Of a stretch of 41,801 nt of DNA, positions 26,594-33,590 are shown one piece after another. This stretch comes from an uncultured Bacilli bacterium (lineage in GTDB: Bacteria; Bacillota_I; Bacilli_A; RF39; UBA660). The stretch is from assembly GCA_904374795.1 (NCBI GenBank), contig CAJFEV010000003.1, forward strand, positions 1-41,801, written 5' to 3'. A program made the translations under genes and the position numbers. The notes under the pieces were generated by a model that worked only from the letters and a program-made list of their open reading frames with translations, was not told the origin of the DNA and made no database searches. Every line of letters begins with the position of its first letter. The first letter of the stretch is position 1.

Positions 26594-26624
26594 TTGACGT
26601 GGGGGGGGGGTGTACTGATATAAT
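26594..26624 (+). promoter_or_regulatory. Promoter with a G10 tract in its spacer (probably phase-variable)
   Basis: TTGACG (26594-26599) and TATAAT (26619-26624, TG one base upstream) are 19 bp apart. The spacer is T, ten consecutive G (26601-26610), then TGTACTGA. Loss of two G would give the ideal 17-bp spacing. It drives the surface protein that starts 30 bp downstream. Confidence 0.75.
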
Positions 26625-26653: not shown

Positions 26654-27523
26654 ATGAAACTTAAAAGATTTAAACAAAAAGATCCAAAGAAAACAGGAAT
26701 AATTTTATTTACTGTAGTTTGTGTACTTTTAGTAGCGGGAGTATTTTTTTATACATCTTTTGCGACATTCCAAGTACAAGAGGAGTTTAATATTATACAG
26801 GGAGAGGTACAAGATCCGGGAGATTTATATTTTGTTTTTTATGTAGATGGTGAGATAAGTAGGACTATGCCTCAAAAGGGTGATGGATATGTATTAGATT
26901 ATGAAAGTACAAATTGTACAAATGGTGCAAGTGTAGAATTAGATGAAAGTGATTGGTTTGTAAAAGTATTAAATATGACTATTACTAGAACTAAATGTAG
27001 TTTATATTTTGAAATTCCTGATGAAGTGATTTTGTATGATAATGGAAATAATTATGCTAATTTTTTTGGCAATAAAGCCATTGATGATTCATATGAGTAC
27101 ATTGGATTTGTTAATGAATATAGCGATAGTGAAGCTAGTCATGTACGTATTTGTACAACTGAAAATTTACATACAGAAAATTATAAATATCTTTATTTTC
27201 AAGTAGACTCTGGATTTCATGTTTCGGGAGGTTATACTGATGGTGTTAAATATTCTGAACCTATTTATTTGTACGAAACACAAGACTTGAATAAAATGTT
27301 TACCGTTGATTTTTCATTTGTTCCAGTTAGAACAGGTAGTTGGATGAGTGATTTAACTGAATTTTCTTCAATAAATCGATTTGATATTAACAATACCATA
27401 ATGGCTAATGGGTTTTGTATAGATTTTCAGGGAATTCTATCTACATTAGCTCCAGCTCCAGGATCTAGTTATCTTCAAATTAATATTTCAAAAATATGGC
27501 TTTCTAATTTAGAATATAGCTAA
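26654..27523 (+). CDS. Membrane-anchored surface protein with Cys-paired repeat domain
   Basis: A 289-residue protein with a cytoplasmic Lys-rich start, one membrane helix (about residues 15-35) and a long extracellular part. Residues about 55-122 form a domain with two cysteines (TNCTNGAS and RTKCSLYF) around GDGYVLDYES and WFVKVLN. The same pattern recurs in the protein at 32065-33590, so they are paralogues. Two more cysteines lie farther on (RICTTEN, NGFCIDF), making four outside the membrane. The ligand or role is unknown; exposure on the surface and the G10 promoter suggest an antigen or adhesin. A GAAGGGA site precedes the ATG. Confidence 0.75.
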   Translation: MKLKRFKQKDPKKTGIILFTVVCVLLVAGVFFYTSFATFQVQEEFNIIQGEVQDPGDLYFVFYVDGEISRTMPQKGDGYVLDYESTNCTNGASVELDESDWFVKVLNMTITRTKCSLYFEIPDEVILYDNGNNYANFFGNKAIDDSYEYIGFVNEYSDSEASHVRICTTENLHTENYKYLYFQVDSGFHVSGGYTDGVKYSEPIYLYETQDLNKMFTVDFSFVPVRTGSWMSDLTEFSSINRFDINNTIMANGFCIDFQGILSTLAPAPGSSYLQINISKIWLSNLEYS

Positions 27524-31992: not shown

Positions 31993-32036
31993 AGGAAGAC
32001 TTTATACTTCTTTTTTTTTACTTCTTTTGATATAAT
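31993..32036 (+). terminator. Weak gpmI terminator and promoter of the second surface-protein gene
   Basis: Stem AGGAAG/CTTCTT (31993-31998, 32007-32012, one G-T pair) running into nine T, then TG-A-TATAAT (32028-32036). Confidence 0.55.
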
Positions 32037-32064
32037 TTTGAATAGTAAAAGGAGAATAGAAAAA

Positions 32065-33590
32065 GTGAAAAAAAGATTGTTTTTTGGAATTCTTCTCGTT
32101 AGTTTAGTTATTTTTTGGGGTATGTTTAGCAAAAAAATACTTTAGAATATTTTATGAATAATGAAAGTATAGAATTAGCTGTGTATGTTAATAATGAAAA
32201 AATTTCGAATATTCCTCTTAAAGAGGATGGATATATTTTTGATAAACAAAATTCTAGTTGTACAAATAATGCTGTAATTTCTTGGGATAATGATACATGG
32301 AGTCCAGTTATTTTTAATATAAATAATTATCCAACTCGTTGTAATTTCTATTTTGGTGATAAAAGTTTTTGTGAAATAAATCCTGATACGACGGCATGTA
32401 CGTTGCTTGCTCAAGGAGCAACAGATGAATTGAGTTTTGATGATACTAAGGATAATAATTTAAGATATAATAACGAATTAGCAAATAATTACATAGATAT
32501 TGGTGAAGAATATTTATCTGATTATGAGGTTCTTTATATAAATATAGATACTTCTTTTATAAAAAATGCAGATGTAGATGCATGTGCTAAGTTTTATTTT
32601 GATCAAAATATTGTGGAAGGAGCCGATTTAGAAGATTATGGGATGATTTGTGAACAAATTCTTTCAAATTCGTTATTGGAAGATATAGTGAGTCAAATTG
32701 ATTATGTAAATAGCGGTGTTAATGGTTTTGATTATGAATTTTTATATGAATTTTTGTCGTCATATATTGATCAGATATATATTACGGCTTTAAATTTAAT
32801 TCAATATAAAAAAGTAGATAAGCCCTTATGGAAAATTGTAGGTGTTATGAATAATGTCGATGATGGTACAGGAAAATTGGAAACAAGATTGAAAGTTACC
32901 CGTGTTCAATCAATAGGTAAGTATAGTTGGGATACCTCAAATTCTACGATAAATAATGGAGATGGAATTAATGAATGGAGTCAAGCTGATTTGATGAAGC
33001 TTTTAAATCCAGGTTATGAGAGTGAAAGTGTTGGTGGAAGTTTATGGTGGAATAATCAATCGGGAAATTGTTATAATGGCTCGAATAATACCTATATTGC
33101 TTGCGATTTTTCAAATAGTTCTTTAGAAAAAGCGAAAGATTATATAAGTGATGCTGTATGGCATATTGGAACTGTTAGTTTGGAAAAATATGCAAATGCT
33201 GATAGTTATTCTATATATAATTTTGAAAGGGATCATACTATAGGAAAATCATGTGGTAGCTCTTTATCTACTTGTAATGATGATGTAGAAAGAACAGCCA
33301 CTTGGATAGGAAAAGTAGGGTTGGTGTATCCTAGTGATTATATGTATTTATCTCATCTCTTTGAAGTTAGCGCTATTCCAACTATAACTCCTATTTATAG
33401 AGATTATTCTAGTACTTCTGTTATCTTAGAGGCTACTGCTTCAGATATAAGTGGTTTCGATGATTTTGTCATTTTACCTTATGCTGCATCTCTGGATTTT
33501 AATATTTTCCCTACTGTTTATTTAGATGCGGATGTTAAATTTCTTTCTGGTAATGGAACTATTGAAGATCCTTATCAAATTGGTTTTTAA
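32065..33590 (+). pseudogene. Surface protein paralogue, out of frame at an A7 tract
   Basis: GTG 32065 behind AAGGAG encodes a signal segment (MKKRLFFGILLVSLVIFW) and stops after 26 codons at 32143. One extra A in the A7 tract (32131-32137) would join it to a 478-codon frame that is open from before 32154 to 33590. The body is related to the protein at 26654: DGYIFDKQNSSCTNN and TRCNFYFG match its Cys-paired domain. The C-terminal part has WIGKVGLVYPSDYMY and ends FLSGNGTIEDPYQIGF. The mature body holds ten cysteines. It is either a switched-off phase variant, expressed by slippage on the A-tract, or a recent pseudogene. The long open frame argues for recent or reversible loss. Confidence 0.7.

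Follow-up and report, generated by a model that had tools for sequence, protein, structure and literature searches.

The gene at 32065-33590 is best explained as one that belongs to a phase-variable surface-protein family and was inactivated recently; a run of seven A residues (A7) probably was the site of slippage in it and is no evolved switch. The probability of this reading is put at about 0.6. The window, i.e. the whole stretch of 41,801 nt analysed here, is contig C3 of a draft MAG (1.3 Mb in 96 contigs; 30% GC). The genus name Candidatus Ventrenecus was taken from the relatives of gpmI, which include Candidatus Ventrenecus stercoripullorum and Ca. V. avicola, while a protein search of genome contigs with the body of the focal gene returned no named relative. 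The genus occurs in gut metagenomes, those of chicken included (PMC8035907), and as grouped here it contains 36 genomes. The features of the focal gene, all on the forward strand, are listed below with the basis of each call (the leader classes are defined further on).

32011-32019 (+): T9 tract upstream of the -10 element (sequence)
32028-32036 (+): extended -10 promoter element TGATATAAT (sequence; aligned in the class-B leader profile match)
32050-32054 (+): Shine-Dalgarno sequence AGGAG, 10 nt ahead of the GTG (sequence)
32065-32145 (+): signal/membrane-segment frame of 26 codons, class-B leader, closed by TAG (frame translation; leader profile)
32111-32120 (+): T6G4, eroded counterpart of the class-B G6-G11 contingency tract (profile alignment; paralogue sequences)
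32130-32145 (+): interval necessarily holding the frame change (stop codons of both frames)
32131-32137 (+): A7 tract (sequence)
32154-33590 (+): body frame of 478 codons (ORF)
32163-32354 (+): N-terminal Cys domain, family-wide (profile A1, E 2.7e-36)
32820-33587 (+): C-terminal domain, common to many family members (sequence comparison; AlphaFold model)

Translation from the GTG at 32065 reaches the TAG at 32143-32145 after 26 codons and yields the peptide VKKRLFFGILLVSLVIFWGMFSKKIL, in which a Lys-rich N-terminus is followed by a single hydrophobic segment. The body frame has no internal stop codon, and its ATG at 32154 has neither a ribosome site nor a signal segment; the signal/membrane segment of the gene is thus present, and the Cys domain lies in another frame. 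The initial annotation, which had described a 26-codon signal frame with a good ribosome site followed by a frame of 478 codons, was confirmed by these starts and stops. It had further placed the break at the A7. Since a TAG at 32127-32129 shuts the long frame on the upstream side, the frame change is confined to 32130-32145, and to the extent that this interval includes the A7 the placement is correct. From the leader G-run to the Cys domain the focal gene has 42 nt, one fewer than the 43 nt of 17 relatives sharing its leader type, which independently supports the loss of one base. A second A7 is located at 32068-32074, just past the start codon. The T9 tract probably represents the tail of the terminator of the upstream gene; a terminator scan around it called no terminator.

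The leader was assigned with a nucleotide profile of class-B leaders (nhmmer), which was built without the focal gene and matches the window at 32021-32140 with an E-value of 1.1e-11, the next match in the window being at 0.015 and the best other leader without a class-B signal segment at 1.7e-5. The focal gene therefore has the leader type whose relatives carry a tract within the coding region. Its -10 element TGATATAAT matches TTTTGTTATAAT of the class-B leaders and a poly-G spacer is absent. The promoter and leader DNA is homologous to that of class B, but the signal codons hold only T6G4 instead of a run of at least six G, so that this leader no longer has a working coding switch. The leader is otherwise well preserved in its promoter, ribosome site and membrane segment.

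For comparison, the 5′ regions of 141 family members were gathered; most of these come from the genome of the window and from those of eight close relatives, all genomes are draft MAGs and all tract lengths are consensus values. Class A (51 genes) carries G7-G13 right after a TTGAC box, between the promoter -35 and -10. Class B (27 genes after removal of L121, a promoter tract that had been sorted into it automatically) has a conserved non-G promoter and G6-G11 within the signal codons, with the consensus GGAATTCTCCTCACCAGTCTAATTGTTCT-Gn-TATACTGAATAAAA. According to an automatic hydrophobicity rule, which left a few ambiguous cases, the hydrophobic segment and the Cys domain share one frame in 48/51 class-A genes and in 55/61 genes without a tract. 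In class B this holds for 10/27 genes vs. 103/112 elsewhere (Fisher p ~5e-9). The class-B fraction does not differ from the one third that random tract lengths predict and, together with the high fraction elsewhere, is the signature of translational phase variation; accordingly, we infer that the G-tracts switch in living cells. Rules based on tract length modulo three are inexact across class B, because further indels or a deviating tract edge occur in L078, L201, L202, L114 and L145. The motif TTGACANGGGGGGG was found in 16/36 genomes of the genus and the class-B motif GTTCTGGGGGG in 8/36, and reversed control patterns gave almost no matches. Nine promoter tracts lie ahead of family leaders in the window's genome, one of them within the window:

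26601-26610 (+): G10 promoter-spacer tract of the class-A paralogue at 26654-27523 (TTGACG, then T-G10-TGTACTGA, then TATAAT)

Both devices have counterparts in other bacteria. Promoter-spacer homopolymers mediate phase variation of Neisseria porA and opc and of Mycoplasma hyorhinis vlp, and the class-A paralogues including the 26654 gene, with G7-G13 between -35 and -10, resemble these; the focal gene differs in having no promoter-spacer tract. The class-B relatives, with G6-G11 in the 5′ coding region and in-frame and out-of-frame members at about chance proportions, resemble meningococcal hmbR and hpuA, which are switched translationally by poly-G. In contrast to hmbR and hpuA, the class-B tract is located within the signal/membrane segment and recurs among the paralogues of one family, which belongs to an uncultured genus of gut Bacilli, and the focal gene, with only G4, has no such switch.

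On the basis of these comparisons, the focal gene would be one member of a large family of phase-variable surface proteins in Candidatus Ventrenecus. In its class-B relatives, gain or loss of G would decide whether leader and body share a frame and thereby act as a translational on/off switch. In the focal copy, the G-tract would have been worn down to T6G4, locking the coding switch, and separately one base would have been lost in the short linker past the membrane segment, most likely within the A7. With this base lost, ribosomes starting at the GTG would halt after 26 codons, leaving a body that itself lacks both a start signal and an anchor. In mechanistic terms the gene would correspond to an OFF allele, and most likely it is a recent pseudogene in which the base loss is presumably fixed. 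It resembles an ordinary frameshifted pseudogene in its single one-base loss, in its body without start signals and in that other family members are broken too, but differs in that the body shows no further decay as yet. The lack of a second lesion counts against inactivation, as it also fits a gene that switches back, and so do the otherwise intact leader and the close parallel of Mycoplasma hominis vaa (A8 vs. A7/A9 near the 5′ end; PMC524362).

The assignment to the family rests on the body. Its N-terminal Cys domain of about 64 aa scored the listed E-value of 2.7e-36 in a profile search of its own genome with a profile that includes the focal body, and in a search with the focal sequence alone paralogues were retrieved at 1e-17 to 1e-22. 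The domain occurs at about 20 places in the window's genome, among them 26822-27010 in the protein behind the G10 promoter (gene 26654-27523). Pairwise comparison of the two proteins gave an E-value of 2.5e-7 and 27% identity, and the earlier statement that they share a Cys-paired domain and belong to one surface family is supported. Relatives of the full protein were found in 33 of the 34 relative genomes of the genus searched and in none of 23 genomes representing other families within the class. Searches of the body sequence against Pfam, NCBIfam and PDB yielded nothing solid, and an AlphaFold model of the body (32154-33587; mean pLDDT 74) had no Foldseek match below E 1. In a second-look alignment, body residues 79-478 of the model were placed on residues 32-304 of the IgA peptidase of Thomasclavelia ramosa, in its N-terminal region (216 residues aligned, rmsd 3.8), with Z 13.3, far above the other rows, and the first 70 body residues aligned weakly to adhesin beta-grasp or mucin-binding-like domains (Z 2.6-4.0). 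These structural matches are regarded as leads rather than assignments. The protein, if made, is likely to be surface-exposed.

Comparison of the site between gpmI and pcrA across the genus revealed differing occupants. Genome G033 has an orthologue of the focal body (59-68% identity) behind an 11-G promoter tract. In G034 and G032 the site is taken by members whose body is of another kind, with promoter tracts of G10 or G9, and in G026 by a third body, which has a class-B leader, while G008, G011 and G020 have no gene at this place; the site is therefore a slot for different members. Family members also adjoin mutL in several species (G000:C29, G008:C75, G013:C62, G033:C14), which is another recurrent slot. 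The genes of the window and of G033 combine orthologous bodies with different promoter-leader types. A wider scenario, in which two poly-G devices, in the promoter spacer and in the signal segment, switch one family, bodies swap promoter-leader modules at fixed sites such as gpmI-pcrA, one body thus comes under transcriptional or translational control depending on the species, and the coding switch of the focal copy was locked and then broken, is put forward tentatively, at slightly below even odds.

Inactivation recurs at the gpmI-pcrA locus, since the only same-site orthologue, that of G033, has a body disrupted by a shift at a T8 and by stop codons; neither orthologue is intact today, and their lesions differ. 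The dN/dS of the body vs. the G033 orthologue is 0.42 (0.28 for the C-terminal part; 0.03 for gpmI), which argues for constraint on the body during most of the divergence. Loss is common in the family as a whole: among genes without a coding G-tract the leader is out of frame in 9/112 (about 8%), in several cases through one-base changes outside homopolymers, and about one fifth of the evaluable members have bodies that end early.

We consider it unlikely that A7/A8 is a reversible contingency switch, in which slippage in the run would bring leader and body into or out of register and of which the assembly caught the OFF length. The idea is sound in kind, since surface genes with runs of 7-8 A close to their 5′ end are direct precedents: vaa of M. 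hominis is ON with A8 and OFF with A7 or A9, at a rate of 1e-3 to 1e-4 (PMC524362), and Mycoplasma fermentans p78 has an A-run in this position as well (PMC2831843). Like both, the focal gene is a surface-protein gene with a short A-run towards the 5′ end, its A7 within the lesion interval leaves the body out of frame, the remainder of the long frame is intact, and homopolymer switching is the way of this family. However, the established switch type of the family is poly-G, and the A-tract is not maintained in relatives, where at least seven A residues occur at the corresponding leader position in only 6/141 family leaders and the length of the run differs by lineage. Near-identical paralogues point in the same direction: of six class-B paralogues in G020, five have near-identical linkers and all six keep an A6 linker run, whereas their G-tracts measure 6, 7, 7, 8, 9 and 9, so that the G-tract is variable and the A-run constant. 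Runs of this kind are also commonplace, with 42 runs of at least seven A and 24 of at least seven T in the window's other predicted genes (37 kb coding), all of which remain open; A7 or longer occurs about once per 900 coding bases in unbroken genes, and an A7 by itself is therefore not unusual. Unlike in the vaa and p78 systems, mismatch repair genes are present, and the focal locus shows a single consensus length. With MutS and MutL encoded (mutS, mutL), hypermutability of the A7 through missing mismatch repair was rejected; for comparison, an A6 tract in Listeria inlA gained a base at a rate of about 1e-7 (PMC2831843). Viral contigs were also searched with the flanking sequence of the focal locus, and no other allele was found. 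Taken together, the A-run that is not conserved among relatives, its commonness, the presence of MutS and MutL, the poly-G switching of relatives and the gene's own G4 leave the A7 unsupported as a contingency element. The initial annotation had suggested contingency loci, which holds insofar as the family is rich in homopolymer loci in promoter or signal segment and does not hold for the A7. Further disabling mutations, which it had named as evidence against its proposal, are found in the same-site orthologue of G033, and the long frame of the window carries none.

Inactivation by slippage also has to be weighed against less probable origins of the frame mismatch. An assembly or consensus error hiding an intact gene is improbable: the window comes from a draft MAG of 96 contigs and the A7 is a homopolymer, but the other long A and T runs counted above keep their frames open and a sister MAG has independent lesions in the same gene. 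Quite improbable, too, is a scar of a leader swap between family members with the join past the membrane segment out of register. The gpmI-pcrA site with differing leader/body pairings in four other species and no gene in three, the different promoters and leaders of the orthologous bodies in the window and G033, and gene L196 of G008, which is frame-broken in the same short linker, are consistent with such an event; however, the linker is off by exactly one base with a homopolymer in the lesion interval, and slippage is simpler. Production of the full protein by programmed -1 ribosomal frameshifting or by transcriptional slippage on the A7, the latter raised in the initial annotation, is very unlikely despite an A-rich site, a weak downstream hairpin (z -1.85) and the G4 about 11 nt upstream, since the in-frame heptamer is C AAA AAA and not X XXY YYZ, A7 is short for polymerase slippage, and the arrangement is absent in all relatives compared.

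The break in the focal gene is itself ordinary and its surroundings are unusual, as they suggest that this host-associated gut genus, which is uncultured, has a poly-G phasome of considerable size that apparently has not been described before, in which many paralogous surface proteins would be under stochastic switches at two levels. A search of one literature collection retrieved no paper that deals with phase variation in Candidatus Ventrenecus. Such a phasome, if real, would imply that the surface varies strongly in gut commensals with small genomes and retained mismatch repair, and variation in tract length is directly testable in existing metagenome reads.

Further poly-G tracts were noted at other loci. 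A TTGACAT-G10 promoter tract precedes an ABC-transporter ATPase gene (L331, G000:C27:14223-14232), hence the promoter device is not restricted to the surface family. Tandem TTGACAAT boxes followed by G17 and G10 are located upstream of a C5 DNA methyltransferase-like ORF (L327, G000:C33:13822-13881), possibly a phase-variable methyltransferase. On the minus strand at G000:C29:15774-15783 (L326), a G10 occurs soon after the start codon of a secreted-looking protein (..VSILGFSYAYW..), whose start and body frames differ in the assembly, and a G11 lies within the coding region of an unnamed protein (L328, G000:C42:8793-8803). Poly-G promoter tracts reach beyond the genus, as G319, G253, G289 and G089, which belong to other genera of the wider family, contain many TTGACANGGGGGGG sites, with up to 24 per genome.
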